From positions 111,584 through 175,583 of the forward strand of contig JACQVQ010000012.1 in assembly GCA_016209685.1 (NCBI GenBank): 64,000 bases of DNA. Direction: 5' to 3'. Both the position numbers and the translations under genes were made by a program. Origin of the DNA: Planctomycetota bacterium. GTDB taxonomy: Bacteria > Planctomycetota > Brocadiia > Brocadiales > Bathyanammoxibiaceae. Below the pieces are notes generated by a model. The model was not told where the DNA came from. It ran no database searches and saw nothing but the letters and a program-made list of their open reading frames with translations. Numbering within the stretch: position 1 is the stretch's first letter; each line of letters starts with the position of its first letter. Positions 53,530 to 62,492 of the stretch are shown piece by piece.

Positions 53530-54294
53530 TTACATCTGCCTCCGCAGTATAAAGGGGAGGTGTACCTGGTCCTGTTTATAATCACCGGTAAGGGCATAGA
53601 GGATGATGTTTATCCCCAGTCGGAAGGCCATGGTCCGTTGGGTCTCTCCGCCCGGGTAGACCTCATACTCCCAGTTCCCCATGGCGTCCCTGGCCCAGGC
53701 GCCACCCAGGTCATTCTGGGAATATATGACCACCGTCCTGCCATCTACGTCTAACCCCTCCAGATACGGATGGGTAATTATCCTGCCTCCCTGGGTATTT
53801 ATAAGATAAAAAGAGCGATAGACGCTGTGGTCATCGGGGAGACGTGTCAGTTTGTGGCCTGGGAATAAGGACTCTACCTCTTTCCTGAAGGTCTCATCAA
53901 ACCCAAAGCCTGGCCTGCCCACGCTGTCATCCGCCAGGAGCGTCCCGCCAAATTGCAGGAAATTTCTAAGGTTTTCCTTTTCTGCGTCATTAAAAGGCTC
54001 AAACCCGTCATCCCCGGCCATATAGAGAAATGGGTATCCAAATATCTCCGGGGCCGAGGGCTGGAGGCTTACGGTATCCAGTCGGGCCTCTACGCTGGTC
54101 CTCTTGACCAGCTCCCACACGAGCCTGGAACCTGCCCTGGGCCTGGGGTTCCAATTGCCACCGCGGTATTCCATCTGGGTAAAGACAAACTTAGAGGACT
54201 CTCCCATTCCCAGGCAACGCCCACCTGAGGCGGACAACCCTAAGGCCCAGCAACCGGCCCCTACCATTAAACCTAGGAATTCCCTCCGTCTCAC
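53530..54294 (-). CDS. Tat-exported DUF4159 protein
   Basis: A 254-residue protein with a twin-arginine signal (MRRREFLGLMVGAGC). The DUF4159 domain (FVFTQMEYRGGNWNPRP, FLYMAGDDGFEPF, LRNFLQFGGTLLADDSVG, HSVYRSFY) has a GATase-like fold without an evident catalytic Cys. SASGGR (21-26) within the signal region is encoded by a CCTCAGG-type palindrome. It overlaps the PLD gene upstream and precedes the VWA gene, forming an operon. Function is unknown. Confidence 0.8.
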   Translation of the reverse strand: MRRREFLGLMVGAGCWALGLSASGGRCLGMGESSKFVFTQMEYRGGNWNPRPRAGSRLVWELVKRTSVEARLDTVSLQPSAPEIFGYPFLYMAGDDGFEPFNDAEKENLRNFLQFGGTLLADDSVGRPGFGFDETFRKEVESLFPGHKLTRLPDDHSVYRSFYLINTQGGRIITHPYLEGLDVDGRTVVIYSQNDLGGAWARDAMGNWEYEVYPGGETQRTMAFRLGINIILYALTGDYKQDQVHLPFILRRQM

Positions 54295-54932
54295 TTCTTT
54301 ACCTCTGGTGACTGTCCGCCTGAGGTGGATGTCATTATCTTGTCAAAGGCCTCTCTAAATGCCCTGGCAACCTCCCTGGAGCGGATGAGGACTGAGGCCT
54401 CGTGGTTGAGCCTGAGGCCGCTGTAAGTCCAGTTGGTACTGCCTATGATAGTTACCTCCTCATCTATCACGATACATTTGCAATGGGTGCTCCTGTCGGG
54501 CGTATCGTAAAATACGGGCACCCCTGCCCCTTTAAGAAAATCATAGGCATACTTGTTCTCTACCTCAGGGCTATCCTCCAGGATTACCTTCACTTCCAGC
54601 CCCCGCTTGCTTGCACTAATAAGGTCTCTAAGGAGCATGCTTTCCCAACCCATTGGGTGTCTCGGACTTAGTTGTGCATGATACATCACACAGAATACGC
54701 CCTTTTTTGCCCCAAGGAGTGCCTCATGGACTGCGGGAAAATAATCAGCGTCTACGAGAGGGACCACCTCCTGGGCAGGGAGGGCCAGGGAAGGGACGGG
54801 AAGGAGGGCCATTAATGAGAGGAGGAAAAAGGGAAACAGGGAACAGGCAACAGGCAACAGGAAAGAAATCTTTTTGCCCGTCTCCTGTCTCCTGTCTACT
54901 GTCTCCTGTCTACTGTCTATTGGCCCCGACAT
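54291..54932 (-). CDS. Secreted phospholipase D-like (PLDc) protein
   Basis: A 213-residue protein with an N-terminal signal or anchor segment and a single PLD HKD motif (HCKCIVIDEEVTIIGSTNWT), as in Nuc-type endonucleases that dimerise. The N-terminus is encoded partly by a GACAGGAG repeat, but ATG 54932 has GGAGGAGG upstream. The C-terminus contains TSTSGGQ from the palindrome family. It is the first gene of the operon with DUF4159 and VWA genes; substrate (DNA or lipid) is open. Confidence 0.8.
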   Translation of the reverse strand: MSGPIDSRQETVDRRQETGKKISFLLPVACSLFPFFLLSLMALLPVPSLALPAQEVVPLVDADYFPAVHEALLGAKKGVFCVMYHAQLSPRHPMGWESMLLRDLISASKRGLEVKVILEDSPEVENKYAYDFLKGAGVPVFYDTPDRSTHCKCIVIDEEVTIIGSTNWTYSGLRLNHEASVLIRSREVARAFREAFDKIMTSTSGGQSPEVKK

Positions 54933-55122
54933 ATTCAGGAAAGACCTCCTCCACCCTTAAACCCCAATCTAGCAGAAATCTACACGGGGGTCAAGTTTGG
55001 GGGCATAGGCGATCCGCCTGAGGCGGACCGCCTATTGAAATTTTTTGACAAGGGGGTACCAATCTGATAGAATGCCCGGCGAGCAGGGGGGGGTGTTACT
55101 AAGTCTCAGGAGGACAAGGGGT

Positions 55123-56904
55123 TTGAAGGTAAAGGTAGCCAAGACGGCAGGTTTTTGTATGGGAGTAAAAAGGGCAATGGATATTGTCCTGGATGCCGCC
55201 TATACCGAAAAACATAAAGGAGCGACGGTATACACCGACGGCCCTCTCATCCACAATCCACAGGTGCTGGACCTGCTGCAGGAAAAGGGTATCAGAACCA
55301 TTAAGGAGGGGGCTGAGTTAGATAAAAACCGGGTAGTAATCAGGGCCCATGGCATCACCCCCAGCCGCAAGAAAGAGATAGAATCTATGGGGGCCAAGAT
55401 ATCAGATGCCACCTGCCCCCATGTCATGCGGGTGCAAAACATTATAAAAAGATATTCAGTCCAGGGGTATTCTACTATCATTATAGGAGACAGTGGCCAT
55501 GCGGAGGTAGTGGGTCTCCTGGGATACGCAGAAGGAAGGGGTTATGTGGTGGGTTCCATGGAGGATATAGATAAGTTACCCCCCCTGGAGAAGGTCTGCG
55601 TAGTGGCCCAAACCACGCAGGATAAGAGGCTTTTCCAGGCAGTAACCTCCAGACTCAAGGAAAGATATAAAGACTGCGAAGTTTTTGAGACTATTTGTGG
55701 TTCTACGCACGACAGGCAGGATGAGGTCATAAACCTTTGTAAATCAGTGGATGCCATGGTCGTCGTAGGGGGCAGGGGGAGTGCAAACACCAACCGGCTG
55801 GTAAAGATATGTGAGTCAGAAGGTGTCCCTACCTTCCATATTGAAACGGAGGCGGAGTTAAACCTGGAGAAACTGGAGGATTTTGAGGTGGTAGGCGTAA
55901 CGGCAGGGGCCTCTACCCCTCAATGGTTGCTAAAGAGGATAGTAGACCTGCTGGCCTCTCACGAGAAGCAAAAGGCCGGAAGGCTAAAAGGCTGGTTCAG
56001 GATGGCCTTTCATACCTCCGTAGGTAGCTGTATGTATTTGGGGATTGGTGCCGTAGCCATGAGTTATGCCAGCGCCGTACTGTTAGGGGTGGAGCCTCAG
56101 TTTAGTTACTGCGCTATTGCTGCCCTATTTTTGTTCTCCATGCACGTATTAAACAACGTGACAAACAGAGAGGCGGTGGCACTGAACGACCCATTTATGG
56201 CTAGGTTATACGATAGACATCACGGCATGTTCCTCGGCCTTGGGCTTGTGGGACTGGTGGCCTCCTACGGACTAGCTCTCGTGGAGGATTTCTATGTCTT
56301 TCTAATGGTCTTCCTATCCAGTGTCTTTTTTGCCCTGGCCTTCCGGATCCACGTCCTCCCCGACAGGGTCTCCCAACTCCTCAAGCACAAGAGCCTTGAG
56401 CGATTTGCCGGCACAAAGGAGATATTCCTCGGTATTGCCTGGGCCCTTACCACTGCCCTATTACCCTTTATTTTGAATGAACCCCAACCCCTGGCGCCCA
56501 TGGCCGTAGCCCTGGCTTTTGCCTTTAGCATTGCCTTTTTCAGGGCAGTGTTAATGGACATCAGGGACATACAAGGGGATAGGTTTGTGGGAAAAGAGAC
56601 CATACCCATAGCCATAGGTAGAGAGTGGACAAAGAATATGCTGATTGGGGTAGCGGTAATTATGGCATGTCTCCTGGTAACTAGCGCCCGGTTAGACTGG
56701 ACCTCTAATTTCAGCCTCTGGCTTATCCCTTGTGTCCTGTATGCCTGTCTGTATCTCTTTCTTTACCATAAGAAGGTCATCGGGGAAGGGTTGGTCTGCG
56801 AGGCAGTGGCAGATTTTAACTTCATTCTGGCAGGTCTACTGGCCTTCCTGTGGGAGAACGAACTGTTTAGCCCTCTTCTGAGGCTTGTCTCAAAGTATGT
56901 CTAA
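55123..56904 (+). CDS. IspH-UbiA fusion: HMBPP reductase joined to a UbiA-type prenyltransferase
   Basis: A 593-residue fusion from TTG 55123 (AGGAGGA upstream; the frame also extends back to 55045). Residues 1 to about 285 are IspH, the 4Fe-4S enzyme making IPP and DMAPP, with its three cysteines (GFCMGV, DATCPH, TICGST) and RAHGI. From about 300 on is a UbiA-type membrane protein with about eight helices. The second acidic motif MDIRDIQGDRFVGK is clear, but the first motif is unusual (NVTNREAVALND). One uninterrupted frame crosses the junction. It may couple prenyl-diphosphate supply to prenylation, which is inference. Confidence 0.87.
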   Translation: MKVKVAKTAGFCMGVKRAMDIVLDAAYTEKHKGATVYTDGPLIHNPQVLDLLQEKGIRTIKEGAELDKNRVVIRAHGITPSRKKEIESMGAKISDATCPHVMRVQNIIKRYSVQGYSTIIIGDSGHAEVVGLLGYAEGRGYVVGSMEDIDKLPPLEKVCVVAQTTQDKRLFQAVTSRLKERYKDCEVFETICGSTHDRQDEVINLCKSVDAMVVVGGRGSANTNRLVKICESEGVPTFHIETEAELNLEKLEDFEVVGVTAGASTPQWLLKRIVDLLASHEKQKAGRLKGWFRMAFHTSVGSCMYLGIGAVAMSYASAVLLGVEPQFSYCAIAALFLFSMHVLNNVTNREAVALNDPFMARLYDRHHGMFLGLGLVGLVASYGLALVEDFYVFLMVFLSSVFFALAFRIHVLPDRVSQLLKHKSLERFAGTKEIFLGIAWALTTALLPFILNEPQPLAPMAVALAFAFSIAFFRAVLMDIRDIQGDRFVGKETIPIAIGREWTKNMLIGVAVIMACLLVTSARLDWTSNFSLWLIPCVLYACLYLFLYHKKVIGEGLVCEAVADFNFILAGLLAFLWENELFSPLLRLVSKYV

Positions 56905-56952: not shown

Positions 56953-57648
56953 ATGGAAGCTGCGGAAAAAGAATCTGGTCTCCTGGGGCCTTTTAAAAAG
57001 GATATAAGAAAGCGGCTTTTTGCCGGGGCACTGGTATTATTCCCCGTTTACATCACCTTCATAGCCCTAAAATACATCTTCATCTTTGCGGGTGGCACCA
57101 TGGTACCTGTGGTAAAGCGGACAATCTTACAATCTGAATGGGTACAATTAAAGGTGCCGGATGCAGTCTTGACCCCTTTGATGTTCCTCCTGGGGCTGGT
57201 GATGTTTTTCCTGGCCCTTTATTTTGCCGGGACCTTTGCCACCCATTTTATCGGTAGACAGATAATCAGATACGCTGAGGCCGTCGTGGCAAGGATGCCC
57301 CTGGTGAAGACCATTTATGGCACCTCCAAGCAAATCGTGCAGACTGCAACCATCCCGGGTAAGGGCGCCTTCAAGCGGGTGGTCCTGGTAGACTTCCCAA
57401 AGGGTGGCACCAAAGCACTGGCTTTTGTAACTGGTTCAATGGAGTGCAAAGAAGGCCCCCCCCTGACCACCGTCTTCGTCCCTACTGCCCCTAACCCATG
57501 GTCTGGTTTTGTGCTCTTCTGTCCCGAAAAAGAGATAGAAAACACCACCCTTACAGTGGAAGAAGGAATCAGGCTAATAGTCTCAGGTGGTATCCTTGCA
57601 CCCGGTAGATTTCGACCAGAAGAATTAGAAAAGTTATTTCCAGCGTAG
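56953..57648 (+). CDS. DUF502 family membrane protein
   Basis: A 231-residue inner-membrane protein with two helices near the N-terminus (LFAGALVLFPVYITFIALKY and LTPLMFLLGLVMFFLALYFA). The conserved DUF502 stretch (RMPLVKTIYGTSKQIVQT, VVLVDFPKGGTKALAFVTG, VFVPTAPNPWSGFVLFCP) follows. The family is widespread and of unknown function. It lies between the IspH-UbiA gene and a LarA-like gene on the same strand. Confidence 0.85.
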   Translation: MEAAEKESGLLGPFKKDIRKRLFAGALVLFPVYITFIALKYIFIFAGGTMVPVVKRTILQSEWVQLKVPDAVLTPLMFLLGLVMFFLALYFAGTFATHFIGRQIIRYAEAVVARMPLVKTIYGTSKQIVQTATIPGKGAFKRVVLVDFPKGGTKALAFVTGSMECKEGPPLTTVFVPTAPNPWSGFVLFCPEKEIENTTLTVEEGIRLIVSGGILAPGRFRPEELEKLFPA

Positions 57649-57692: not shown

Positions 57693-58949
57693 GTGCCCCC
57701 CCCAAAGATGATAAAGGTCAAAATGATAAAGATAAGACAGAGATTCTCTGCCACGAAGGTAGTAGATGTCGCTGAGACGGTAACGCAAGAACTCCAACGC
57801 CTCTCCCTGGGGGACACACTGAAACCCGGACACAGCGTGGCCGTCACTGCAGGGAGCAGGGGAATCTCAAATATAGGACTCATCCTCCGCAAGGTCGTAG
57901 ACCACCTGAAGACCCTTGGGGCACAGCCTTTTATCGTGCCAGCTATGGGCAGTCATGGCGGCGCCACCGCCCAGGGACAATTAAAACTCCTTGCCCATTA
58001 TGGCATAACAGAGGCATCTATGGGGGTGCCCATCAAGTCCTCCATGGATGTAGTAAAGATTGCTACCAGTCCCCTCGGTCTCCACATCTATATAGATAAA
58101 TACGCCTCCGAGGCCAACCACATCGTCCTGGTCAACAGAGTAAAACCCCATACCCGCTTTAGCGGTAAGATTGAGAGTGGAATCGCAAAGATGCTCCTTG
58201 TAGGGTTGGGAAAGCACCAGGGCGCCTCCCTCTACCACAAGGCCGTCCTGGAATACCCCTTTGATGAGATAGCCTTTAACGTCGTACCAACCGCTCTTAA
58301 AAAACTTTCGGTACTCTGTGGCCTTGCCATAGTAGAAAATGCCCATGGAGAGATAGCCTGGCTAAAGGCCCTCTGTCCAGAGGAATTCCTGGAAGAGGAA
58401 CCTAAGCTACTCCGGAGGGCCTACGAGCTTATGGCGAAACTCCCACTGGAAACCATAGACCTGCTGGTAATAGACGAGATGGGGAAGGATATAAGTGGTA
58501 CAGGCATGGACACCACCGTCATTGGCCGTAAAGACAGTAGCCCAATTAAGATAAAGAGGATTTTTGTGGGGGACCTCACAGAGGCGTCTAACGGAAATGC
58601 CTGTGCCATAGGTCTTGCCGACTTTACTACTAGACGCCTGGTGGATAAGATTAACCTTAAGGATACTTATATAAACTGTATCACGGGGCTTCGCCCCGAA
58701 GGGGCAAAGATACCAATAGCCTACGATACAGACAGGGAGGCTATTGAGCAGGCATTAAATACCCTCGGCCTCGTGGACCCCCAGGAGGCCAAAATAGTGC
58801 GGATAAAGAACACCAATGAACTAGAGACCCTCCAGGTCTCTGAATCCTGCATGCCCCAACTGGAAGACAGGAAAGATATAGATATAATCTCTGGACCAGA
58901 GGATTGGGCCTTTGACAAGATGGGCAATTTCCTGCCTTTAGACACTTAG
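57693..58949 (+). CDS. LarA-like (DUF2088) protein, lactate racemase family
   Basis: A 418-residue protein of the LarA superfamily. The N-terminal domain carries VTAGSRGISN and MGSHGGATAQGQ, and NRVKPHTRF follows. True LarA uses a nickel-pincer nucleotide to racemise lactate, and many DUF2088 proteins have other or unknown substrates. No larBCE genes are nearby. Starts at 57708 or 57729 (MIKIRQRF) are alternatives. The stop is 2 bp before the tRNA-Sec gene, which is probably processed from the same transcript. Confidence 0.78.
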   Translation: MPPPKMIKVKMIKIRQRFSATKVVDVAETVTQELQRLSLGDTLKPGHSVAVTAGSRGISNIGLILRKVVDHLKTLGAQPFIVPAMGSHGGATAQGQLKLLAHYGITEASMGVPIKSSMDVVKIATSPLGLHIYIDKYASEANHIVLVNRVKPHTRFSGKIESGIAKMLLVGLGKHQGASLYHKAVLEYPFDEIAFNVVPTALKKLSVLCGLAIVENAHGEIAWLKALCPEEFLEEEPKLLRRAYELMAKLPLETIDLLVIDEMGKDISGTGMDTTVIGRKDSSPIKIKRIFVGDLTEASNGNACAIGLADFTTRRLVDKINLKDTYINCITGLRPEGAKIPIAYDTDREAIEQALNTLGLVDPQEAKIVRIKNTNELETLQVSESCMPQLEDRKDIDIISGPEDWAFDKMGNFLPLDT

Positions 58950-58951
58950 AA

Positions 58952-59047
58952 GGGAATGGATGGGGCCCGGTGGCCCTGACGGTCTTCAAAACCGCTTAGA
59001 CCCCCAAAAAGGGGTTTGGTGGGTTCGACTCCCACACGTTCCCGCCA
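58952..59047 (+). tRNA. selC: Selenocysteine tRNA (anticodon TCA)
   Basis: A 96-nt tRNA with acceptor GGGAATG / CGTTCCC, discriminator G and encoded CCA (59045-59047). It has a long D stem (GGGCC/GGCCC), an anticodon stem-loop with TCA at 58986-58988 in loop CTTCAAA, a long variable arm (CCCC/GGGG) and T arm GTGGGTTCGACTCCCAC. The extended size and UCA anticodon identify tRNA-Sec. The organism therefore decodes UGA as selenocysteine; selA, selB and selD are not in this window. Confidence 0.96.
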
Positions 59048-60803: not shown

Positions 60804-61021
60804 ATACTTAGCCTCCTTCTAGACGCCGTTCATTTAATTAGTGTGAAGTTTGTAGTCTACTTCTCCGCAAGTTTAACTACAAAGATACTTGGAGTCAACT
60901 CCAAATTATAAAAAGGATACAGGGAACAGGTAACAGATGACAGGTAAAAACCTTCTCCCCTGTCTTTCTGTATCCCGTCCCCTGCATCACGTCCCCAGCA
61001 TCACGTCCCCAGCCTCCAGTT

Positions 61022-61729
61022 CTATAGACAGCATGCCCTCTCAAGGCCGTCCCAGAGGACTTTTCTGGCATCCAGCATGTACATCGCACCCCTCCTGATA
61101 CGCTCCTGATTCTCAGAGCTCCTGGTATAGGGTTCAATGGAGTGCCAGATATTCTCCCCATGCTCCACGTCAAGGGTAATATGGGCAGAGAAGAAGAGGA
61201 GGTCAGCCTCTTTGTAGCCTTTTTTCTTCAGACCGTCATAAATGGGCTTGTAGATGAAAGGGACGGTGTATTCTATCCCTGGGCCAAGGGCGCCAAGGGC
61301 CTCCACGAAGTGCAGTTCGTGGAGGTGGAAACACCTTTCCACAAAGAGAGAGGTCTCAGGGAGGGGCTTGGTCGTCTCCAGGTTGGCCCCGGCGGCCTTA
61401 CAGAACTTCCTGAAGATATTGGCATGTACCAGCTCCAGGTCCATCTCTTTCTGTTCCTCCGCCCTTCCACCATATTCCTCGTAGAGGTTCTTTATGAGCG
61501 GCTCCCTCGCAGGTTCATCAGGGATTATGGATATAACCGCCGCCAGATACCTGGAGAAGTGCTTGGAGTATTGATAGTACTGCTCGGCAAAAATCTTGGG
61601 ACCTTCCGGTCTAATCTTCCCCTCGCCAAACTTCTTCAGAAAAGAATGGGTCATGGCGGGGTGGGCATGAACCTCTTTCTTCAGTGATTCAACAAACGGA
61701 CTTCTGACTTTTTCTCCGACAAGTGTCAT
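61022..61729 (-). CDS. PqqC/CADD-like haem-oxygenase-fold protein, copy 1
   Basis: A 235-residue all-helical protein of the TenA/PqqC/CADD superfamily. The metal-ligand pattern HxxxDxxH is present (HITLDVEH), with upstream NLYEEYGG and a Glu/His helix (FHLHELHFVEALG). In CADD-type proteins such residues bind a di-iron centre used in p-aminobenzoate formation. No pqq genes are nearby. It ends RACCL, two adjacent cysteines also present in the neighbouring paralogue. AGGAGGTCA precedes the start. Function is not settled. Confidence 0.8.
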   Translation of the reverse strand: MTLVGEKVRSPFVESLKKEVHAHPAMTHSFLKKFGEGKIRPEGPKIFAEQYYQYSKHFSRYLAAVISIIPDEPAREPLIKNLYEEYGGRAEEQKEMDLELVHANIFRKFCKAAGANLETTKPLPETSLFVERCFHLHELHFVEALGALGPGIEYTVPFIYKPIYDGLKKKGYKEADLLFFSAHITLDVEHGENIWHSIEPYTRSSENQERIRRGAMYMLDARKVLWDGLERACCL

Positions 61730-61787: not shown

Positions 61788-62492
61788 TTAACCACAGCAT
61801 ACCCGTTCCAGGCCATTCCACAGGACTGTCCTGGCGCCCAGAATCTCCATAGCACCCTGCCTTATGAGGGCCTGATTTTCCTCTGTAACCGCATACTCCA
61901 GCAGGGCCTCTTTTATGTTAGCGCTGTGTTCTACATCCATCTGCATGTGGAGGGTGAAAAACTCTATGTCTTTTTCACTGAGACTGGGCTCTTTCCTGAG
62001 TCCCTCGTAGATGGGGTGATAGATATAAGGTACGATGGCCTCAGTCCCAGGCCCTAAGGCACCCAGGGCCTCCAGGAAATGACCATCCCTGCACACAAAG
62101 AGATACTCATGGATAAACAGCCTAGTCTCAGGGAGGGGCTCCGTCCTCTCCACCTCGGCGGCATCCAGGCGGAGGGCCTTCAGGAAACGGCGGAATATGG
62201 CGGGATGGGCACACTCAGGCTTGCCTTCCCCATACTCCTCATACAGGTTCTTGATAAGGTGTGCCCTTGGCCTCTCGTCCGGCATGTTGGCAATTACCGC
62301 GGAGACATACATGGCAAACCACCTGGAATACAGGTAGTATTGCCTTGCAAATATCCTTATCCTGTCCAGCGTCAGCTTGCCGCTACTAAATTTATTGAGG
62401 AAGGGGTGGTTCATGGCAGGATGCGACCTTATTTCTTCCTCCAGTGATTCCAGGTATTCCCTCGGGCCTGGTACTAAGGTAGTAGTAATCAT
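61788..62492 (-). CDS. PqqC/CADD-like haem-oxygenase-fold protein, copy 2
   Basis: A 234-residue paralogue of the downstream gene, aligned along its whole length (SHPAMNHPFLNKFSSGKL against AHPAMTHSFLKKFGEGKI). It keeps HMQMDVEH and ends RVCCG. The tandem arrangement with a 58-bp gap implies duplication followed by divergence, and possibly a heterodimer. Upstream is a 210-bp gap that holds no gene but probably the promoter. Confidence 0.8.
   Translation of the reverse strand: MITTTLVPGPREYLESLEEEIRSHPAMNHPFLNKFSSGKLTLDRIRIFARQYYLYSRWFAMYVSAVIANMPDERPRAHLIKNLYEEYGEGKPECAHPAIFRRFLKALRLDAAEVERTEPLPETRLFIHEYLFVCRDGHFLEALGALGPGTEAIVPYIYHPIYEGLRKEPSLSEKDIEFFTLHMQMDVEHSANIKEALLEYAVTEENQALIRQGAMEILGARTVLWNGLERVCCG

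Follow-up and report, generated by a model that had tools for sequence, protein, structure and literature searches.

Hybrid proteins joining IspH to a UbiA-type domain were described by Rao et al. in 2015 as 'Rosetta stone' proteins, from 47 sequences that all came from sulfate reducers, mostly Desulfobacterales (PMC4746011). The authors noted separate UbiA/MenA proteins in hybrid-bearing genomes and proposed that the UbiA domain brings IspH to the membrane for a local supply of IPP/DMAPP; expression of the full hybrid failed (PMC4746011). Among the other papers that we searched, a single one names the hybrid, and only within its reference list. The fusion and the idea of IPP/DMAPP delivery at the membrane, which the sequence-only reading of this DNA also raised, are therefore not new, having been published in 2015. 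What we add is a lineage-specific erosion of the UbiA active site, a wider distribution, and the coexistence of the fusion with stand-alone IspH in some Nitrospirota.

Three other systems offer points of comparison. The IspH-RPS1 fusions of Firmicutes also carry a partner C-terminal to IspH and also occur in anaerobes, although there the partner is made of repeats of ribosomal protein S1 and is no membrane domain (PMC4746011). In the UBIAD1-HMG-CoA reductase complex, a UbiA-fold membrane protein is likewise held to an enzyme of isoprenoid-precursor synthesis; the two are, however, separate proteins, and the pair belongs to the mevalonate pathway and to eukaryotic protein degradation (PMC9314443). 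Among UbiA enzymes of solved structure, AfUbiA binds two Mg2+ through N68, D72, D198 and D202, with D76 not binding directly; EcMenA loses all or nearly all function when any of the four ligands or Tyr139 is mutated, and in all there are five positions at which mutation kills EcMenA or EcUbiA (PMC4106721).

The protein studied here comes from a member of the Brocadiales, the anammox order of Planctomycetota. It resembles the hybrids of 2015 in domain order, in its similar size and in coming from genomes with a separate UbiA/MenA. It differs from them in host and in active site: the hybrids of sulfate reducers have two DxxxD sites (a reported feature of the group, not a strict criterion), whereas our protein has NxxxN and DxxxD, with Phe in place of the catalytic Tyr.

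RESULTS

One reading frame encodes IspH and a UbiA-type membrane half

Within the window (the whole stretch of DNA analysed, 64,000 nucleotides), an open frame at 55045-56904 (+) runs for 619 codons with no internal stop. Pfam assigns its residues 29-303 to LYTB/IspH (PF02401, E 1.4e-91) and residues 451-575 to UbiA (PF01040, E 1.8e-9), so that both lie in a single frame, as the sequence-only reading had it, with IspH N-terminal to UbiA. The mechanical start of the frame falls within a promoter-like site, and translation most likely begins further on, at the TTG at 55123, which is where the sequence-only reading placed it, a choice supported by the AGGAGG and the promoter-like site upstream of it (Table 1). 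The promoter is suggestive only, because such sites are no commoner in the region than in shuffled sequence. From this TTG to the stop at 56904 the product has 593 residues and begins MKVKVAKTAGFCMGV; all residue numbers below, such as N344 and D486, refer to this protein.

Table 1. Coordinates of the fusion gene and its signals, motifs and downstream neighbour in the window
Feature	Position	Strand	Basis or remark
Sigma-70-like promoter, TTGACA-17-TAGAAT	55045..55073	+	11/12 consensus positions, TG before -10; suggestive only
Ribosome-binding site, AGGAGG	55108..55113	+	9 nt before the TTG start; sequence
IspH (HMBPP reductase) half, residues 1-282	55123..55968	+	Pfam, structural model, catalytic residues
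UbiA-fold membrane half, residues 283-593	55969..56904 (incl. stop codon)	+	Nine transmembrane helices; Pfam, model
Degenerate first Asp-rich motif, N344-N-V-T-N348-R-E350-A-V352	56152..56178	+	Alignments, profile alignment to canonical UbiA
Phe407 at near-universal UbiA tyrosine position (AfUbiA Tyr139)	56341..56343	+	Alignments
Intact second Asp-rich motif, D479-I-R-D482-I-Q-G-D486	56557..56580	+	D482 = AfUbiA D198, D486 = D202
DUF502 membrane-protein gene	56953..57648	+	48 nt downstream of the fusion

The DUF502 gene, which adjoins the fusion in 48 loci, is probably co-transcribed with it. When fusion neighbourhoods were compared, DUF502 and a nickel-pincer isomerase were the neighbours in Brocadiales; aminotransferase, aldolase and ketoacyl synthase genes in Nitrospirota; and tRNA synthetase, PPDK and FtsJ genes in Deltaproteobacteria. 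No conserved neighbour suggesting an acceptor pathway was found among them.

Other features of the window were recorded in passing. The nickel-pincer cofactor isomerase gene ('group 22', NF052515, E 1.7e-153; 57693-58949, +) is often the second gene after the fusion in Brocadiales. It is followed by a tRNA-Sec gene with anticodon tca (58952-59047, +), which suggests selenocysteine use in this Brocadiales relative. On the opposite strand, tandem haem-oxygenase-like proteins related to CADD/BesC are encoded at 61022-61729 and 61788-62492; CADD-type enzymes take part in folate (pABA) synthesis in some bacteria. Short dispersed repeats occur at 68 places in the assembly, in both orientations. Those of the CTGTTGCCTGTTGCCTG type lie in the window at 54837-54867, inside a predicted PLD-like ORF (54291-54932), and at 60920-60936.

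The fusion is genuine and occurs in several phyla

A same-genus genome carries a fusion protein 98% identical to ours, and a same-family genome one that is 81% identical. With the UbiA half as query, a scan of one genome from each of 84,980 species gave 294 relatives; 77 of the best 80 are in-frame IspH-UbiA fusions, drawn from several phyla, so that this UbiA subfamily, as far as its best relatives show, occurs only fused to IspH. The other three comprise two genes cut by contig ends and one that is frameshifted, in Ca. Scalindua rubra, where the frameshift splits the fusion gene inside the UbiA half. A sequencing error between the halves is excluded because the related genomes agree on the in-frame join; the sequence-only reading had named a stop or frameshift there as what would refute it.

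Brocadiales supply the best matches (Ca. Brocadia, Kuenenia, Jettenia, Scalindua, Anammoxibacter and relatives), the nearest record being 'Candidatus Brocadiaceae bacterium Yes70-17' with a UbiA half 100% identical. Outside the order, the fusion was found in other Planctomycetota, Nitrospinota, Nitrospirota, Thermodesulfobacteriota and Zixiibacteriota, and in genomes labelled Myxococcota (Deltaproteobacteria) and Deferribacterota. Its range is therefore wider than the sulfate reducers alone of the 2015 statement. On a quick IspH tree with many weak forks, four label changes are required to account for the fused proteins, and a single origin of the fusion with some losses is possible. At one locus (L044:5070-8648, +, genome G290) the open frame runs some 620 residues upstream of the fusion, with no Pfam match there; as the sister genome G235 starts normally, this extension is probably just a frame without stops.

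Since the host order is that of anammox bacteria, a link with ladderane synthesis was considered. It was set aside: many lineages outside Brocadiales have the fusion too, and in a paper on proposed ladderane genes IspH figures only in the reference list.

The IspH half retains the features of an active enzyme

The three cluster cysteines (C12, C98, C192) and the catalytic E128, H126 and T165 of the LYTB domain are present in 142 of 142 aligned relatives, and H44 is also present in our protein. Modelled at full length (mean pLDDT 87), the protein shows the IspH trefoil fold, superposing on E. coli IspH (3szu) with Z 33.6 and rmsd 1.6 Å. Active-site conservation and modelled fold together point to an HMBPP reductase.

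A search of the assembly for a second ispH, as the sequence-only reading had advised, returned the fusion as its sole PF02401 match; IspG is also present. Most of 18 further fusion-bearing genomes likewise have one IspH. Three Nitrospirota genomes (L122, L127, L142) have a stand-alone IspH of 282-285 residues beside the fusion, and their fused IspH retains every catalytic residue despite this additional copy.

The UbiA half keeps the fold and loses part of the active site

Used alone in a sequence search against solved structures, the UbiA half gave no match. Its profile gave weak matches, the best (E 0.0044) to an archaeal DGGGP synthase, too weak a match to argue for an archaeal-type role in lipids. 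Modelled separately (pLDDT 87), the half adopts the nine-helix UbiA fold, with Z 20.0 against ApUbiA (4od4) and 19.6 against DMAPP-bound AfUbiA (4tq4), while soluble isoprenyl synthases score lower (Z 17 and below). Each of the 13 best Foldseek matches is a UbiA-type enzyme, with a best E of 3.8e-5. Our protein thus shares with AfUbiA and ApUbiA the nine-helix fold and the equivalents of N68 and D198/D202; it differs from them in sequence (11-13% identity), in the soluble IspH in front, and in the replacement of D72, D76 and Tyr139.

Profile alignment with the canonical UbiA of the order places N344-N348-V352 opposite N91-D95-D99, and D482-D486 opposite D215-D219. In place of the canonical first motif NDxxDxxxD the protein therefore has N344-xxx-N348-xxx-V352, bearing out the suspicion of an altered first motif; the second motif, DxxxD, is intact. 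In AfUbiA numbering, N68, D198 and D202 are kept, D72 is replaced by Asn, D76 by Val, and the near-universal catalytic Tyr139 by Phe (F407). Two of the five positions essential in EcMenA/EcUbiA are thus replaced here, and other lineages have replaced different ones.

The replacements follow lineage. Asn348 stands at the D72 position in 67 of 75 Brocadiales rows of the alignment. Every row from the window's family has Phe at the Tyr139 position, whereas other Brocadiales keep Tyr. Nitrospirota show the opposite pattern, retaining N-xxx-E-xxx-D in motif 1 and having Ser in place of D198. The full set (N, D/E, Tyr, D and D) is retained in 23 of the 142 rows, a number that includes near-duplicate genomes. 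Conservation elsewhere in the site is strong: D486 is present in 142 of 142 rows, and D486, K432 and R474 are invariant both in Brocadiales and in other phyla, apart from other Planctomycetota, where D486 is invariant and the other two positions are mostly K or R. The DRxxGxETxP stretch after motif 2 is kept as in active UbiAs.

Pairwise dN/dS was 0.07-0.12 for the UbiA half where estimable and 0.02-0.08 for the IspH half, values that are rough because synonymous sites are near saturation. Ratios this low in the UbiA half indicate that it is under purifying selection and not decaying freely.

A separate MqnP-like UbiA is present in the order

Brocadiales genomes, complete ones included, carry a separate UbiA, roughly 300 residues long. 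In the same genus this protein clears the TIGR01475 cut-off; its matches to the MqnP models are strong but stay under the cut-offs of those models. The fused UbiA is therefore a second protein in an order that has a canonical, MqnP-like one elsewhere; neither MqnP nor TIGR01475 is among the NCBIfam matches of the fusion up to E 1.

In the assembly studied here (G000), the fusion is the one PF01040 match, and MqnA/D-family genes are present. In one of these (G000:C2:45260-46096, -), some 84 extra bases interrupt the profile match within an open 336-residue frame; as a dispersed repeat of about 60 bp lies there (C2, 45535-45600), the repeat may have been inserted in frame. In a sister genome, the separate UbiA sits on a 9-kb contig that G000 matches only by short dispersed repeats. 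Because this contig is otherwise without a match in G000, the missing UbiA is attributed to an assembly gap. The other genes of that contig, named by eye, are presumably those for trigger factor, purC, nth and PEP carboxykinase. Three fusion-bearing MAGs (82-88% completeness) gave no other UbiA and no MqnA/D match, a hint of a role unconnected with quinones for the fused domain, although incompleteness may explain the absence.

DISCUSSION

The loss of metal ligands and of Tyr in combinations that differ by lineage makes standard prenyl transfer unlikely as the conserved function of the fused UbiA half in the window's lineage. We therefore place first, tentatively and at slightly short of even chances, a membrane-tethered IspH whose UbiA-fold partner binds an isoprenoid diphosphate without the standard chemistry. 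The UbiA domain would anchor the organism's only detected IspH in the membrane, and the IspH half, cytosolic at the inner face, would reduce HMBPP to IPP/DMAPP, releasing its product close to a UbiA cavity that retains part of the diphosphate-binding apparatus. The UbiA half keeps the scaffold of a prenyl-diphosphate cavity together with motif 2, Asn344, Lys432 and Arg474, while lacking an Mg2+-binding Asp and, in the window's family, the catalytic Tyr. Within the bilayer it would most likely serve IspH as a cis partner that binds an isoprenoid diphosphate, holding, receiving or sensing the product, and standard quinone prenylation would be left to the separate MqnP-like enzyme of the order.

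Several observations count against a non-catalytic partner: motif 2, DRxxGxETxP and Asn344 are kept, and most relatives keep Tyr. As most keep Tyr and 23 keep the whole set, the fusion family as a whole may be catalytic, and a change of D to N at one ligand does not prove that Mg2+ binding is lost. We rank second, as a serious possibility, a prenyltransferase that is still active, has an altered metal site and uses a dedicated acceptor; IspH would feed it C5 diphosphate or a downstream prenyl diphosphate at the membrane, along the lines put forward by Rao et al. (2015) and by the sequence-only reading. The strong conservation of motif 2, N344, K432, R474, E492 and T493 speaks for such an enzyme, as do the strong purifying selection on this half, the full canonical set in some relatives, and the persistence of a fusion with all IspH catalytic residues beside a stand-alone IspH; the last, seen in the three Nitrospirota genomes, is as compatible with a dedicated reaction as with sensing. 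Against it stand the three replacements in our protein (D72 to N, D76 to V, Tyr139 to Phe), the differences between phyla in which Mg2+ ligands are lost, the lack of a conserved neighbour pointing to an acceptor pathway, and the lack of a close solved homologue. The sequence-only reading took the altered motif as a sign of another substrate. The alteration is real; a plain change of substrate is only possible, and a partly dismantled or non-canonical site is, judging from the residues, at least as likely.

UBIAD1 senses GGPP and controls HMG-CoA reductase (PMC9314443), and a sensing role for a UbiA protein is thus possible. By analogy, and not by homology of function, the fusion might be a bacterial counterpart of that pair, in which a retired prenyltransferase senses a prenyl diphosphate or a lipid-linked isoprenoid and feeds back on the last MEP step; we consider this specific form unlikely.

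Less probable still is that the UbiA half merely anchors or stabilises IspH, for example by keeping this oxygen-sensitive Fe-S enzyme close to an electron donor in the membrane. Anammox bacteria are anaerobes. The erosion of catalytic residues would suit an anchor, and IspH-UbiA has been reported in anaerobes (PMC4746011), but the position-specific conservation of motif 2, K432, R474, W440 and T493 across phyla exceeds what an anchor needs. That the fused half is the organism's menaquinone prenyltransferase (MqnP), as the single PF01040 match beside MqnA/D-family genes in our assembly could imply, is very improbable and was rejected: same-genus and same-family relatives carry a separate MqnP-like UbiA, its absence here reflects an assembly gap, and the fused half matches no MqnP model. 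An assembly or sequencing artefact joining two genes has nothing in its favour and is refuted by the same fusion at 77 of 80 independent loci.

Returning to the binding partner that we place first, the question of what the UbiA domain does for IspH has become more tractable, since the fusion is now found across the anammox order, beside a normal quinone-type prenyltransferase, and with residue losses that differ between lineages while selection retains the domain. If the UbiA domain regulates or channels the IspH product, the MEP pathway of anaerobes, anammox bacteria included, would have a control point at the membrane.
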